This document shows positions 47,247 to 52,612 of a stretch of DNA of 64,000 nucleotides, one piece after another. Within the stretch, counting starts at the first letter, position 1. Each line of letters starts with the position of its first letter. The translations under genes and the position numbers were made by a program. This DNA is from Pelagihabitans pacificus (lineage in GTDB: Bacteria; Bacteroidota; Bacteroidia; Flavobacteriales; Flavobacteriaceae). The stretch covers positions 1,116,001 to 1,180,000 of the forward strand of contig NZ_VIKU02000001.1 of NCBI RefSeq assembly GCF_009371985.2, read 5' to 3'. The notes under the pieces are model-generated. The model was given only the letters and a program-made list of their open reading frames with translations. It did no database searches and was not told where the DNA came from.

Positions 47247-49712
47247 ATGAAAGACGAATCCAAAAACAGATTTACCTTCAAGATCATCTTCAGCTATCTG
47301 GTATTGGCCGTGCTTTTTCTGGTGGCAGGCTATTTTATCTATTCCGAAATTCGAGTAATCCTGTATAACGACACTGCCGAGGAAACCGACATAAAATTAC
47401 TCAAGACCGGAGCTTTGGTCACAGAACTATATGAGGCCGAAAGCCTTTCAAAATTGGCCCTACAGAACAAGACACAAGCAAATTTCAACGCTTATGCCGC
47501 CAAAATCGATACCCTTTCTATGGATATCGATACCCTAAAACAGCTCTCGGGGGACGAACACCAAAAAAGCATGCTCGATAGTGTGCAACTGCTATTACGT
47601 AAAAAGGTAGACAACAGCAATGAGCTACGTAATCTGAAAGTCCAGAACGAGGCGAACAATTCCATTGACATCGCATTAAAGGAATTCCGCAAGATGGAAT
47701 CGTCTTTCGGCAAGCTTACCGCCTATGACATTCATCCTAATCCAGAGAGTTTATCATCGTATGAACGAAAGGTGTTGGAGGATTGGGTGACCTACCTGAA
47801 CGATAACATTCCCGCCGACAGCTCCGATTTACCCGATTCTGAAAAAATAGACTCGATTATCAATGCTTCTAGAGTATTGTTGGTCGAAGCCAAGATGAAA
47901 GATGCCAAAACACAGCGTTTTCTAGCTCAAAAAGAGGAAGAGATCAATAGGAACGATTTGGAACTCTCCCAACAGCTTCGTACCATCATTTCGGCTTTTG
48001 AACAGGAAGTGCTATTAAATTCGTACAACCAAAGTTTAAAAAGACAGGCAGCTTTTCGCAAAAGTATGCGTTTGGCAGGATTTGCGGCAGTCCTTGGTTT
48101 TTTGGTCGTAGCGCTCTTTACCTTTCTCATCAACAGGGATTTCTGGCGTATACAGACCTATCGTCAAAAACTGGAAAAGGAAAAGAAATTTTCCGAATCG
48201 TTGCTCAGAAGTAGGGAACAACTCATCTCCACGGTGAGCCATGACCTTCGTACCCCACTGAATACCATTACCGGATACACCGAGCTGATGGAAAGTACAC
48301 CCTTGAGCGAAAAACAAAAACAGTACCTGAAAAACGTCAAATCCTCTTCGGAATACGTGAATAATCTGGTCAACGACCTGTTAGATTTTTCTAAACTGGA
48401 GGCCGGCAAGCTTAAGGTTGAAAAAGTACCCTTTATAGCCGCCCATTTGATACAGGAGACCGCCGAAAACCTGCAGGCTCTTTACAGCCACAAAAAACTC
48501 AGTCTATTTCTGGAAATCGATCCTGAACTAAAACAAACTGTGTCGGGAGACCCCTTCCGAATTCGGCAAGTACTCACCAACCTGATCGGGAATGCCTTCA
48601 AATTTACCGAGGAGGGATCCATAAAAATTCGTGCCAAGGCTATTGGAAAAGGCAAAAATAGTAACACCCATATCGAGATCCAGGATACTGGCATTGGAAT
48701 TCCAAAGGAGAAACAGCAGGTGATTTTCAAAGAGTTTGCCCAGGGCGAGGATAACACCGATAAAAAATTCGGCGGCTATGGACTTGGGTTGACCATTTCA
48801 AAGAAGTTGACCGAATTGCTCGGCGGCAGCTTGCAATTGGAAAGTGAGTTCGGCCGTGGGAGCACCTTTATCCTTAAAATCCCCTTGGAGATTACCAAAA
48901 TAGAAGCGGTCGAAAAAACCGAGGCTCCCTATATGGCACCAAAACTGAGGATGCTTATAATCGATGATGATACCGCTCTGCTGCGGATGTTAAAAGAATT
49001 GACCGGGAGTATGGGAATACGCGCACATATTTTCTCAAACTTTTTACAGGTTGAAAAAGAGTCGCATTTGGCTTATGATCTGGTGCTTACCGATATTCAA
49101 ATGCCTCAAATAACCGGGTTTGAGGTATTGCAACGGTTGAGGGCCGGCGAATACAAGCATTATAAGAATCAGCCAATTATCGCGATGACCGGTAGAAGGG
49201 ATTTGGAATCCGAAGCCTATACTTCCCTGGGATTTGCCCAAGTACTTCAAAAACCATTTTCCAAAGGGGAATTGATAGGAATACTGAAACTGTTGGGGTT
49301 GCATACTAAAAACCTAGGAAAGGAATTGACCCCAAAGGAAAAAACAACCACCGCAGAAGTCTATGACCTTGATATTATTCATTCCTTCTTGGGCACCAAC
49401 GAAGATGCCATTCATGATGTTTTGGAGACTTTTTTAATGGATACCTCGACCAATATGAAGTTGTTGAACGAAACCGTTACGGCTAGGGATTATGCCCAAA
49501 TAAACAGCGTTGCACATCGTATGCTCCCCATGTTTCGGCAATTGAAGGTTGCGAGCTGTGTTCCTATTCTGGAACGATTGGAAGTGGCCACTCCGGGCGA
49601 TATGGATGCCGTAAGTTTGGACAATAGTCTAAGAACCCTTAAAGAAAGTGTGGTTATCCTCATTGTTGCCCTCGAGAATCGACTGGCTACAAGTCCAACT
49701 TATAATGACTGA
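47247..49712 (+). CDS. hybrid histidine kinase with receiver and HPt domains
   Basis: 821 residues. Two membrane helices (about 11-30 and 275-296) enclose a long helical periplasmic sensor. The kinase core has His332 in STVSHDLRTPLNT, N-box NLIGNAFKFTEEG, and FGGYGLGLTISK. A receiver follows with phospho-acceptor Asp616 (LVLTDIQMPQITG). A C-terminal HPt-like domain carries His757 in VAHRMLPMF. This is a full phosphorelay chain in one protein. It overlaps by 26 bases the convergent NtrC-type regulator, its obvious partner. Confidence 0.95.
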   Translation: MKDESKNRFTFKIIFSYLVLAVLFLVAGYFIYSEIRVILYNDTAEETDIKLLKTGALVTELYEAESLSKLALQNKTQANFNAYAAKIDTLSMDIDTLKQLSGDEHQKSMLDSVQLLLRKKVDNSNELRNLKVQNEANNSIDIALKEFRKMESSFGKLTAYDIHPNPESLSSYERKVLEDWVTYLNDNIPADSSDLPDSEKIDSIINASRVLLVEAKMKDAKTQRFLAQKEEEINRNDLELSQQLRTIISAFEQEVLLNSYNQSLKRQAAFRKSMRLAGFAAVLGFLVVALFTFLINRDFWRIQTYRQKLEKEKKFSESLLRSREQLISTVSHDLRTPLNTITGYTELMESTPLSEKQKQYLKNVKSSSEYVNNLVNDLLDFSKLEAGKLKVEKVPFIAAHLIQETAENLQALYSHKKLSLFLEIDPELKQTVSGDPFRIRQVLTNLIGNAFKFTEEGSIKIRAKAIGKGKNSNTHIEIQDTGIGIPKEKQQVIFKEFAQGEDNTDKKFGGYGLGLTISKKLTELLGGSLQLESEFGRGSTFILKIPLEITKIEAVEKTEAPYMAPKLRMLIIDDDTALLRMLKELTGSMGIRAHIFSNFLQVEKESHLAYDLVLTDIQMPQITGFEVLQRLRAGEYKHYKNQPIIAMTGRRDLESEAYTSLGFAQVLQKPFSKGELIGILKLLGLHTKNLGKELTPKEKTTTAEVYDLDIIHSFLGTNEDAIHDVLETFLMDTSTNMKLLNETVTARDYAQINSVAHRMLPMFRQLKVASCVPILERLEVATPGDMDAVSLDNSLRTLKESVVILIVALENRLATSPTYND

Positions 49713-51054
49713 TTTTGTTGTAAAGGGTCTTTCTGGTTACCTGGAGAAGTTTGGCCGCCTCCGACTTGTTGAAATTTGTGCGTTTTAGGGCTTGGATAAT
49801 TCGGTCTTTTTCGAATTCCGCCTTTGAAAACCGGTCTCTAACCTTATTTTTGGGGGACGGTTGCCTCACTTCTTGAGGAAGGGCCTCGATTTGCACCTCA
49901 TCGCCAGCGGTCAATAGTACCGACCGTTTGATAATATTTTGGAGTTCCCTTAGATTTCCCGGCCAGTGATAGCGTTTAAAGGCGTTCCAAACTTCCTTTG
50001 AAAAACCGGTTACATTCTTGTCTAGGTTATGGTTGGCCTTCTCTAAAAAATGTTCTGCAAACAGCATCAAATCTTCAAAACGATCTTGTAAGGAAGGTAG
50101 TTCAATGGAAAACTCGTTCAATCGATGGTAAAGATCCTCACGAAAACTTCCTTTCCCGACCAATTCGGTAAGATCTTCATTGGTTGCGGTAATGATGCGT
50201 ACGTCGACCAAGATTTCTTGCGTACTTCCCACTCTCTTTATTTTTCGCTCCTGTAGTGCCCGGAGTAACTGTATTTGGTTGTCGTAGGACAAGTTGCCCA
50301 CCTCATCCAAAAAGAGTGTACCTCCGTTGGCCGCTTCAAAATTCCCCTTCTTATCCTCTACAGCTCCCGTAAAACTTCCTTTAACATGTCCGAAAAACTC
50401 ACTAGTCGCCAATTCTTTTGGGATGGCTCCACAATCGACCGCAACGAAGGGAAAATCCTTGCGCTTGCTCTGATCATGTATCGCCTTTGCCGTTACTTCC
50501 TTTCCGGTACCGCTTTCACCGGTAATCAAGACCGACATGTCGGTAGGAGCGACCAGTTTAATGTATTCGGCTAACTTTCTGGAGGCTTCGCTAGTACCTG
50601 TGATAGTATGTTGGCTTGCAATAGGATTGCTTTTCGCGCTATTGGTGTTGCTTGTTTTGGCAACCCCTCCATGGTTCGGCAAACTTTCCGATGGCCGGGC
50701 CTTCAATGCATTTTCAATGACCATCACGATTTCATCGGGCGTGAAGGGTTTGGAGATATAATCGTAGGCTCCTTTTTTCATAGCGTTGACTGCGGAACCT
50801 ACCTCGGCGTAGCCGGTCATCAAAATGACCTGGGTCTTTGAATTCACCTCTTTGATATCGGTAAGCATTTGTATGCCGTCATAGTCGGGAAGACGTAAAT
50901 CGGTCAGTACCACGTCGAAGTTGGTCTCGGAAAATTTGACCTTGGCATCGGGCGCGGTAAAACTCGTTTCTACTTGATAATTGTGTTTGGTCAAGAACTT
51001 CTGCAACATTTGACAGAATGCGGCATCGTCCTCAATAATCAAGATGTTCGGCAT
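49687..51054 (-). CDS. NtrC-type sigma-54-dependent response regulator
   Basis: 455 residues: receiver with Asp52 (VVLTDLRLPD), a linker, AAA+ domain with Walker A GESGTGKE (179-186), and a C-terminal Fis-type HTH (FNKSEAAKLLQVTRKTLYNK). The sigma-54-contacting loop reads GSFTGA (226-231) rather than GAFTGA. It would activate sigma-54 promoters when phosphorylated, presumably by the convergent hybrid kinase through its HPt domain. Candidate targets are the two small exported proteins just upstream, which carry sigma-54-like promoters. Confidence 0.95.
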   Translation of the reverse strand: MPNILIIEDDAAFCQMLQKFLTKHNYQVETSFTAPDAKVKFSETNFDVVLTDLRLPDYDGIQMLTDIKEVNSKTQVILMTGYAEVGSAVNAMKKGAYDYISKPFTPDEIVMVIENALKARPSESLPNHGGVAKTSNTNSAKSNPIASQHTITGTSEASRKLAEYIKLVAPTDMSVLITGESGTGKEVTAKAIHDQSKRKDFPFVAVDCGAIPKELATSEFFGHVKGSFTGAVEDKKGNFEAANGGTLFLDEVGNLSYDNQIQLLRALQERKIKRVGSTQEILVDVRIITATNEDLTELVGKGSFREDLYHRLNEFSIELPSLQDRFEDLMLFAEHFLEKANHNLDKNVTGFSKEVWNAFKRYHWPGNLRELQNIIKRSVLLTAGDEVQIEALPQEVRQPSPKNKVRDRFSKAEFEKDRIIQALKRTNFNKSEAAKLLQVTRKTLYNKISHYKLDL

Positions 51055-51342: not shown

Positions 51343-51374
51343 AGAAAGGGGCCGCATTTTATACGACCCCTTTC
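51343..51374 (-). terminator. terminator after small exported protein 1
   Basis: Hairpin with GAAAGGGG/CCCCTTTC arms, 40 bases past the stop at 51415, followed on the minus strand by TATTTTTAATG. Confidence 0.72.
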
Positions 51375-51414
51375 CGACCAAACCAACTTGATACAAAACA
51401 AATAACTCAAGTTA

Positions 51415-51714
51415 TTACATTTCAATCCAGTTTCCGTTCTCATCGGCGTACAAGGTACCGGAAGTACCATCTTCCAAAGACACCTCTAATTTGAACTGCT
51501 TTGCCTCGTTGACATATGCTTTATCGATAGTCGCCGTAGGATAGTTTTTGGCAACAGCGGCGGTAACGGCCTCAGGCAACTCACTAGCGGCGATTTCAGT
51601 AAAATCATCCTGGGCTACGGCTTCAGTAGCAGTAGCTTCTACAACGTCTGCATCCTGGGCGAAAGCTGTTAAACTTCCTAGAGATAATGCTAATACAAAA
51701 AATACTTTTTTCAT
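51415..51714 (-). CDS. small exported protein, paralogue 1 (candidate sigma-54 target)
   Basis: 99 residues with a signal peptide ending at LTAFAQ. The acidic/alanine-rich N-terminal stretch is followed by a helix and strands ending YADENGNWIEM, a PepSY-like layout. It is paralogous to the gene at 52109: same signal peptide, AYVNEAKQFKLEV versus AYVNEAAQYKLEV, and the same last residues. It should be periplasmic or secreted. Upstream lie a sigma-54-like promoter and a repeat array shared with the paralogue. Function unknown. Confidence 0.85.
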   Translation of the reverse strand: MKKVFFVLALSLGSLTAFAQDADVVEATATEAVAQDDFTEIAASELPEAVTAAVAKNYPTATIDKAYVNEAKQFKLEVSLEDGTSGTLYADENGNWIEM

Positions 51715-51746
51715 GATTCTCAATTTTATTTATTCCCTTTATCTAA

Positions 51747-51763
51747 AGAAAATATAGTACCAA
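51747..51763 (-). promoter_or_regulatory. sigma-54-like promoter of paralogue 1
   Basis: TTGGTACTATATTTTCT on the minus strand. GG at -24 and C at -12 have exact sigma-54 spacing, though the usual GC is TC. It lies 32 bases from the ATG and shares 13 of 17 positions with the element ahead of paralogue 2. Confidence 0.45.
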
Positions 51764-51826
51764 ACCCGCTACAAAATGTAATAAATTGATTATCAAAGAG
51801 ATGTGTATTTATAAGTTTTTCCTGAC

Positions 51827-51873
51827 TGTGTAAATGTGTGTACCGCTGTGTGAAATCGTATAAAACATACACG
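51827..51873. promoter_or_regulatory. TGTGTAA repeat array, candidate activator site (paralogue 1)
   Basis: TGTGTAA (51827), TGTGTAC (51837) and TGTGTGA (51847) recur at exact 10-base steps, followed by CATACACG (51866). The array starts 64 bases upstream of the sigma-54-like element. A related array precedes paralogue 2. The rest of 51715-52032 holds nothing else recognisable. Confidence 0.5.
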
Positions 51874-52032
51874 AAAATCATTTTTCGATATGAAGTATGG
51901 TAGGAATCAAGTGCTTGCCTTATAGTTCCAAAATCAATCAAGTTCAAAAGGCCGCTTCATCATATCGAGACTTTCCGTTTCCCTACCCAAATTCAAGGAA
52001 AACGAATTTGGTAGGTATGGGTTTCGCAAAAA

Positions 52033-52064
52033 AAAAGTCCCGACAGGAGACTGTCGGGACTTTT
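52033..52064 (-). terminator. terminator after small exported protein 2
   Basis: Perfect 14-base arms AAAAGTCCCGACAG and CTGTCGGGACTTTT with a GAGA loop, 44 bases past the stop and flanked by further A/T runs. It could work on both strands. Confidence 0.9.
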
Positions 52065-52108
52065 AACTTAAACTAACTAAATATACGCAATAAGAAAGTG
52101 GGGCTTGT

Positions 52109-52417
52109 TTACATTTCAATCCAATTGCCCTCGGCATCGGCATACAATTCAACAGCTTCGCCGTCTTCCTTAGTAACTTCCAACTTATATTGGGCAGCCT
52201 CATTAACGTACGCTTTGGAAATGGTGGCTCCAGGATGGGCAGCTTCCAAAGCAGCGGAGATAGCCTCTGGCAGTTCTTCCAAAGCCACTTCAGCAAATCC
52301 ATCTTGTGTTTCCACTGCTTCTGTTGCTACAGCTACAGCTTCGGTGGCCTCTTCTTCTTGTGCGAATGCGGTCATAGTTCCTAGGGAAAGAGCCGCTACT
52401 AAAAATACTTTTTTCAT
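52109..52417 (-). CDS. small exported protein, paralogue 2 (candidate sigma-54 target)
   Basis: 102 residues with a signal peptide ending at MTAFAQ. A Glu/Ala/Val-rich stretch is followed by a helix (LEELPEAISAALEA) and beta strands ending YADAEGNWIEM. It is the tandem paralogue of the gene at 51415, separated from it by about 390 bases with its own promoter and terminator. This suggests two independently transcribed copies under common control rather than an operon. Function unknown. Confidence 0.85.
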   Translation of the reverse strand: MKKVFLVAALSLGTMTAFAQEEEATEAVAVATEAVETQDGFAEVALEELPEAISAALEAAHPGATISKAYVNEAAQYKLEVTKEDGEAVELYADAEGNWIEM

Positions 52418-52466
52418 TTTGTTCGTGTTTAAAATTTATTGTTATTGTTTTGATTCACTTACTTAT

Positions 52467-52483
52467 AGGAAGAATAGTGCCAA
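52467..52483 (-). promoter_or_regulatory. sigma-54-like promoter of paralogue 2
   Basis: TTGGCACTATTCTTCCT on the minus strand matches the -24 part TTGGCAC exactly and has TTCCT where TTGCT is expected, with correct spacing. It lies 49 bases from the ATG. Confidence 0.55.
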
Positions 52484-52558
52484 TTGGTGTATGGGACAAT
52501 AAAATATATAATAAACTGATAATCAATATATTGAATAGCGGATGATTTTTCCAATTGT

Positions 52559-52607
52559 TGTGTAATGATGTGTAATCCTTTTGAAAGTGTGTAATTTTTA
52601 TACAACG
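52559..52607. promoter_or_regulatory. TGTGTAA repeat array, candidate activator site (paralogue 2)
   Basis: Three perfect copies of TGTGTAA start at 52559, 52569 and 52588, followed by TATACAACG. The array starts 76 bases upstream of the sigma-54-like element and ends next to the DUF4301 stop codon. The arrangement parallels the one ahead of paralogue 1. Confidence 0.55.
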
Positions 52608-52612
52608 TAGGA

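Follow-up and report, generated by a model that had tools for sequence, protein, structure and literature searches.

We found that two genes for small exported proteins of Pelagihabitans pacificus, which lie beside genes for a hybrid histidine kinase and an NtrC-type response regulator, are each preceded by a sigma-54-like promoter element and, farther upstream, by an array of short repeats. The elements, their geometry, and their co-occurrence with the regulator are conserved among relatives. We consider it quite probable that they form a dedicated envelope-sensing module, in which the hybrid kinase would signal to the NtrC-type regulator, the regulator would bind the array, and sigma-54 would direct transcription of the small periplasmic proteins. 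An earlier note on this DNA had proposed a dedicated module of phosphorelay, sigma-54, and small secreted proteins; our comparative tests support that proposal, and we infer the sigma-54 dependence and the binding by the activator.

The locus and its genes

The window is the whole stretch of 64,000 nucleotides that we analysed (G000:C1:1116001-1180000, in a genome of 4.56 Mb), and neighbouring genes and elements are numbered within it. Gene A (51415-51714, minus strand) encodes an exported PepSY-like protein of 99 amino acids with a signal-peptide-like start, MKKVFFVLALSLGSLTAFA. Gene B (52109-52417, minus strand) encodes a paralogue of 102 amino acids that is 65% identical to A; a search of the genome with A gave just these two at E <= 0.01. 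Downstream of both, on the same strand, is the gene for the NtrC-type regulator (49687-51054), and tail to tail with it is the gene for the membrane hybrid kinase (47247-49712, plus strand). The kinase/activator block had been described as divergent; it is in fact convergent, with 3' ends that overlap by 26 bases (49687-49712). A hairpin scan identified a terminator-like hairpin on the minus strand behind gene A (51343-51375) and another behind gene B (52033-52064), which agrees with the proposal that the two genes are separately terminated. There were four such hairpins in the region, against a mean of 1.7 in shuffled sequences.

Protein A matched PF11396 in Pfam with E = 9.3e-4, which is under the gathering score (A and B scored 19.9 and 18.2 bits, and the curated cut-off is 28.3). 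Half of the homologues (14 of 28) matched this family at E <= 0.01. At the same threshold, PepSY-like similarity was the only Pfam result for A and B, with no match to a ZraP-type zinc chaperone. A profile of 28 homologues matched two solved periplasmic proteins, PDB 3db7 (5.6e-6) and 3due (2.7e-5). The predicted model of A (pLDDT 73, and about 88 over residues 41-99) has a strand-helix-three strands topology, and its best matches by Foldseek were also 3due and 3db7 (probability 1.00 and 0.99, E of only 0.029 and 0.067, TM 0.45 and 0.44). By both profile and model, then, A resembles solved members of PF11396. Among the named relatives that we had for comparison, Ulvibacterium marinum is the nearest (87% for protein A), although closer Flavobacteriaceae exist.

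The regulator contains a receiver (PF00072, 4.8e-27), a sigma-54 AAA+ domain (PF00158, 4.9e-69), and a Fis-type helix-turn-helix or HTH (PF02954, 2.2e-14, with VTRKTLYNKI near the C-terminus). These are the domains of an NtrC-type enhancer-binding protein, so the description of this gene as a sigma-54 activator beside A and B was correct. The kinase has HisKA, HATPase, and receiver domains. Across 51 aligned kinase sequences (44 distinct, mostly from near relatives), His332, Asp616, and His757 are conserved in at least 95%; His757 lies in the HPt-like C-terminus, in the context AHRMLPMFRQL, and is conserved in 98%. The kinase had been called a hybrid kinase with an HPt domain. The first part holds, but Pfam gave no Hpt match at E <= 5, and His757 is the candidate for this role. 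A phosphorelay is likely.

A sigma-54-like promoter element with a variant -12 box

On the minus strand upstream of gene A is the -24/-12 element TTGGTAC-N5-TTTCT (TTGGTACTATATTTTCT, 51747-51763), and upstream of gene B is TTGGCAC-N5-TTCCT (TTGGCACTATTCTTCCT, 52467-52483). We rechecked these coordinates, which the earlier note had reported, and they are correct. Its description of the elements as sigma-54-like is borne out for the TGG of the -24 box and for the spacing, which are canonical, but not for the -12 box, where GC is replaced by TC in A and by CC in B.

In the window, the promoter and array patterns are not strikingly more frequent than expected by chance (10 versus 5.1 expected with at most one mismatch, and 10 versus 5.6 with at most three mismatches). 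Across the organism's own genome, the promoter patterns gave 10 matches against 8, and 33 against 28; 30 of those 33 promoter-like matches had loci, and 13 were internal to long frames, with no start downstream of them. The array pattern gave 13 matches with at most two mismatches, versus 29 for the reversed control. Because these counts are near chance, we examined relatives, and the evidence is comparative.

We assembled 84 loci (the window, L055-L080, L183, L290, L292, and L296-L349), with several genomes present by two routes. Removing duplicates by the last 150 bases left 160 regions upstream of small genes. In 149 of them the gene has a promoter region to itself, and the other 11 belong to genes that immediately follow another small gene. 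Some of the 149 are poor cases; the gene of L080, for example, gave no Pfam result at E <= 0.5. As controls, we used 418 upstream regions of neighbouring genes from the same loci. A nonredundant set contained 46 upstream regions with less than 60% mutual identity and 104 controls. Co-occurrence and genome-wide counts refer to 119 genomes.

A strict form of the promoter motif, TGGYAY-N5-TTNCW, was present in 87 of the 149 small-gene upstream regions (and absent from 62), versus 0 of 418 controls and 0 of the 11 tandem genes. At other spacings from N2 to N9, it was found 11 times with N3 and at most three times with any other. With a weighted sigma-54-like score of at least 12, the comparison was 131 of 149 against 10 of 418. 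In the nonredundant set, TGGYAY-N5-TTYCW was found in 28 of 46 regions (0 of 104 controls; mean 0.08 and maximum 2 in shuffles), and other spacings of the two boxes in at most 2 of 46. The boxes thus have the fixed spacing of sigma-54 promoters. Among all 119 genomes, the promoter pattern occurred 95 times, versus 35 for the reversed control (counted from tables). A pattern one base longer, which serves as a spacing control, occurred 47 times versus 25, and never at a PepSY-gene promoter.

At 136 sites, the TGG, A, and YAY of the -24 box are conserved, although the scoring itself favours GG. In the -12 box, C is kept at 131 sites and G at just 4, so the GC of sigma-54 promoters is missing, and W-n-T-A is conserved after the C. 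The -12 G is a defining base of sigma-54 promoters. Its loss at 132 of the 136 sites, along with the conserved W-n-T-A, would fit a different role for TGGYAY-N5-TTYCW, as the target of a repressor or of a sigma factor other than sigma-54. We nevertheless think this improbable. The spacing of five bases is strict, and to our knowledge it fits no other promoter class. TAnnTTTG elements of the primary type, which the earlier note had named as the competing source of transcript starts, do not occur in the 250 bases that precede either gene A or gene B and are found within 120 bases of only 9 of the 149 small-gene homologues, versus 53 of 58 upstream regions of the neighbouring SAHase gene. Finally, the same -12 variant occurs with a perfect TTGGCACG -24 box before ompH (see below). 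The presence of RpoN is uninformative because it is nearly universal: the rpoN gene is in this genome and in 118 of the 119 genomes.

Arrays of half-sites upstream of the promoters

Upstream of both A and B is a 17-bp palindrome of the type TGTGTAA-N3-TTACACA, with tandem half-sites in helical register nearer the promoter. For gene A, the palindrome (CGTGTATGTTTTATACG) is at 51857-51873 and three half-sites in 10-base steps are at 51827-51853; for gene B, the palindrome (TGTATAAAAATTACACA) is at 52588-52604 and two TTACACA half-sites, 10 bases apart, are at 52559-52575 (all on the minus strand). We presume that these are activator sites. The repeats that had been noticed before are all there (TGTGTAA, TGTGTAC, and TGTGTGA at 51827, 51837, and 51847, and TGTGTAA at 52559, 52569, and 52588). 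The three phased copies are real, but since the array also holds palindromes formed by inverted pairs, it has more than three copies.

At least two half-sites were found in 104 of 149 small-gene upstream regions and in none of the 418 controls, 26 of which had at least one. In the nonredundant set, the numbers were 29 of 46 versus 0 of 104, with a mean of 1.1 and a maximum of 5 in shuffles. TACACA and TGTGTA are both missing from 16 of the 149 regions; 8 of these 16 carry the variants TATACA or TACCCA, and the rest do not. The palindrome TGTGTA-N5-TACACA was found in 47 of 149 regions and in 0 of 418 controls, and any other spacing from N0 to N11 was found in at most 1 of the 149; the looser GTGTA-N5-TAYAC was found in 74 of 149. 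Palindrome spacing also shows a lesser peak at N7 (13 of 149, and 9 of 46 nonredundant). Direct pairs of TACACA favour periods of 10 (24 cases), 19-20 (35), and 29-31 (25); by comparison, there were 14 at 21-23, and every other period that we tried had at most 3. Aligned on the palindrome, regions with TGGT promoters read CGTGTA-N5-TACACA, followed by TACCCA and TTACACA about 20 and 30 bases on, and regions with TGGC promoters read AAAGTGTGTAA-N3-TTACACACTTT, followed by TTACACA and TATACA.

The arrays also keep their distance from the promoter. According to the part of PMC4987338 that was available, the sites of NtrC-type activators are usually 80-150 bases upstream, and looping is often helped by IHF. 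In the 65 cases with both elements, the centre of the palindrome is 101-117 bases from the -24 box, which is inside this range. In the nonredundant set (36 cases), most distances between the -24 box and its nearest half-site group at 64, 76-78, and 87-88 bases, and stray values range from 23 to 103. The distances of 64 and 76 bases that had been reported for A and B are two of these recurring values. Orthologous upstream regions, whose alignment the earlier note had suggested, carry both the array and the promoter element, even below 60% mutual identity.

Between the array and the -24 box, we tentatively identified, by pattern and enrichment, an IHF-like sequence, WATCARN4TTR (51779-51791 for A and 52509-52521 for B, both on the minus strand). 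It is present at 41 of the 136 sites (mean 1.4 and maximum 6 in shuffles; 2 of 418 controls), whereas the adjoining 75 bases farther upstream have it at none of the 136. In the nonredundant set, it was found at 7 of 38 sites (shuffle mean 0.39, maximum 4). Because it occurs in a minority of sites, we take it as a suggestion only.

The palindrome has no genome-wide excess: with three central bases and at most one mismatch, there were 87 matches in the 119 genomes versus 109 for the reversed control. At least 15 were exact; of the exact palindromes among the matches listed, 12 were at module loci and 3 elsewhere (inside a coding gene in G015, and between genes in G027 and G055). A palindrome with four central bases was rejected as a candidate (70 matches at one mismatch versus 88 for the reversed control in the 119 genomes, with none exact among those listed). 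Of the 13 array matches in the organism's own genome, 3 are in the arrays of A and B. Seven of the other 10 are inside open frames, including the only exact one (C17:305470). The last three (L006, L007, and L015), each with two mismatches, fall in gaps between frames, and their 3-kb loci contain no strict promoter site. We count these matches as probably due to chance. Separately, in G021 and G031 (L074 6905-7560 and L290 6126-6700), an array and a promoter-like site occur without an intact PepSY-like frame; these may be decayed genes or untranslated transcripts.

Co-occurrence with the activator

An orthologue of the activator (E <= 1e-110) is present in 30 of the 119 genomes, and the small protein (E <= 1e-5) in 26, all of which are among those 30. 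The co-occurrence with this activator, which the earlier note had proposed to test for the array, is complete for the small gene (26 of 26), although the genomes share ancestry, so that this represents far fewer than 26 independent events. The collection includes 47 genomes of other families, all of which lack both at these thresholds. The small gene adjoins the activator in 24 of the 26 genomes; for G007 and G008, this judgement spans a contig break. The two genes are on separate contigs in G038 and G058, where the small gene still has the array; its promoter site is good in G058, and in G038 the score is 10 of 15, with no good site. Of the remaining four genomes with the activator, G049 and G071 have a more divergent small gene with a palindrome and a promoter beside the activator. 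G031 has the activator with an array and a promoter but no open frame, and in G030 the activator adjoins a transposase-like frame (judged by eye), with no small gene beside it.

These data bear on whether some other regulator, such as an OmpR- or LytTR-type protein, binds the array and the neighbouring NtrC-type gene serves other promoters. OmpR-type sites consist of tandem 10-base half-sites, which the arrays recall, and the genome encodes three other full sigma-54 activators, which could use the sites. A direct tandem pair is also unusual for Fis-type HTH dimers, and this counts against binding of the array by the activator. Yet every genome with the small gene has an orthologue of this activator, the array persists where the two genes are unlinked, and NtrC sites have the same 6-5-6 arrangement as the palindrome.

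The HTH sequence of the activator provides another comparison. It is TRKTLYN in 66 of 70 loci in which an HTH was found (in G061, our search pattern did not find it). In G016 and G039, it is SIDRKTLYN, and the promoters lack TTACACA: those of G039 have TGTGGAA and TTCCACA instead, and G016 has one TACACA and TTCTACA. With just two cases, this apparent match between HTH and half-site is suggestive only. The HTH of G022 is SRKTLYN, and its promoters also lack TACACA; G030 has a third activator of the SIDRKTLYN kind. Overall, we give binding by another regulator a small chance and prefer the neighbouring activator as the protein that would bind the array.

Two further observations concern the distribution of these genes. 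G003 has a second NtrC-type gene (L080 4472-7663; 36% identical) near a small gene that is weakly similar to A, and this locus has no array and no good promoter site. At the thresholds used, both the activator and the small proteins are missing from G005, a species of the same genus.

Origin of the two paralogues

A and B are neighbours and are 65% identical, so the likeness of their upstream regions might reflect recent duplication and nothing else. Recent duplication is an unlikely source of this likeness because each paralogue has orthologues in other genera, most of which are closer than A is to B. Identity to A is 78-93% for its orthologues in L055-L066, and identity to B is 74-93% for its orthologues in L055-L064 (58% in L065 and 47% in L066). 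In a tree of 59 proteins, A and B fall into groups that span 22 and 17 loci, although the split is weakly supported (0.71 and 0.41). As the motifs also persist in upstream regions with less than 60% identity, we give duplication as the sole explanation almost no chance.

A similar element upstream of ompH

Outside the window, a 19-base sigma-54-like element, TTGGCACGATATTTTCTAT, lies upstream of ompH in the same genome (G000:C1:664948-664966; L016 and L285). The product of this gene matches PF03938 with E = 2.6e-30. The identical 19-mer is present in 23 of the 119 genomes (counted manually). Of 30 loci that we read, 14 have an OmpH-like frame, judged by its sequence, that starts at most 154 bases downstream; 12 of these have the exact 19-mer, and these 12 are all of the exact cases among the loci read. 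The ompH element is an independent witness for the variant -12 box. It is also present in genomes without the activator, such as G005 and G017, so another activator would have to serve ompH.

Flavobacteriaceae might therefore have a sigma-54 programme for envelope homeostasis with a variant -12 box (TTTCTAT, not TTGCT), in which the kinase/NtrC-type module would control PepSY-like feedback proteins and another activator would control ompH/skp, a periplasmic chaperone. We regard this broader idea as speculative and somewhat doubtful.

Comparison with known systems

The enhancers of NtrC in enteric bacteria consist of a 6-5-6 palindrome with further sites, 80-150 bases upstream. The arrays share this layout but differ in sequence, and their extra sites are direct half-sites, not palindromes.

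The closest precedent for the layout is ZraPSR of E. coli and Salmonella, in which the NtrC-type ZraR activates the adjacent zraP from a sigma-54 promoter (PMC4987338 and PMC8249747, as far as available). In the available parts of these papers, ZraR has a single target region by gSELEX, and PMC8249747 cites ChIP results with 25 further targets; titles that the two papers cite describe ZraP as a chaperone and repressor of ZraSR, and ZraPSR as an envelope stress response. In both systems, genes for a kinase and an NtrC-type regulator adjoin the target gene, which encodes a small exported protein and has a sigma-54-type promoter. There are several differences. ZraP is a zinc-binding chaperone, while the effector here is PepSY-like; the kinase here is a hybrid, with a receiver and an HPt-like part; the effector is present in several copies, which usually have arrays of their own; and the -12 G is lost. 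Also, zraSR is autoregulated, but the kinase and activator genes here have no array of at least two half-sites (0 of 418 controls). The earlier note knew of no such module in the literature. Its general layout has a precedent in ZraPSR, but otherwise we found no such module in the open-licence papers, available in part, on sigma-54 or RpoN in Flavobacteriaceae or Bacteroidetes or on PepSY-like proteins with two-component systems. The main text of a sigma-54 survey (PMC12316311), in the part available, does not mention PepSY, OmpH, or Skp.

Like A and B, the PF11396 (DUF2874) proteins BVU2987 (3due) and BT0923 (3db7) are small and exported, and they are linked to A by the profile and fold matches. 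A and B differ in having about 100 amino acids and one short domain, in scoring below the Pfam gathering score, and in being tied to a sigma-54 activator. An inhibitory function was proposed for the BVU2987-type family (PMC2954215, in part), which by analogy would fit a possible feedback role of A and B. In the available part of PMC10434189, the PepSY-like BT_0922 and BT_0923 of Bacteroides thetaiotaomicron rise on iron depletion and are listed with a sensor kinase, a hint by analogy that iron depletion may be one possible signal.

Proposed mechanism and significance

We propose that the hybrid kinase, a membrane protein, would respond to a signal from the periplasm or the membrane and that phosphate would pass from His332 to Asp616, then to the HPt-like His757, and on to the receiver of the adjacent NtrC-type regulator. 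Once phosphorylated, the regulator would attach as dimers to the 17-bp palindrome and to the tandem half-sites, some 65-115 bases before the promoter. The bound regulator would form an AAA+ oligomer and, perhaps with the help of bending of the AT-rich stretch in between, would remodel RNA polymerase-sigma-54 at the -24/-12 element, so that each small gene is switched on as its own transcript. The exported PepSY-like proteins would act in the periplasm, most likely by binding or inhibition, and may exert feedback on the kinase or shield the envelope.

In the literature that we found, some of it available in part, sigma-54 regulation in Bacteroidota is thinly mapped, and scans that rely on the textbook TTGC box at -12 may miss promoters such as these. 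The layout is kept in many related genera, far beyond this genome. Across the family, the module supplies matched sequences of activator, enhancer, and promoter with which sigma-54 recognition in flavobacteria can be tested. It is also a concrete case for functional tests of small periplasmic proteins of an uncharacterised kind. In our view, the greater consequence lies with the variant -12 box and the ompH promoter. If the broader programme is real, sigma-54 would do here the work that sigma-E and Cpx do elsewhere.
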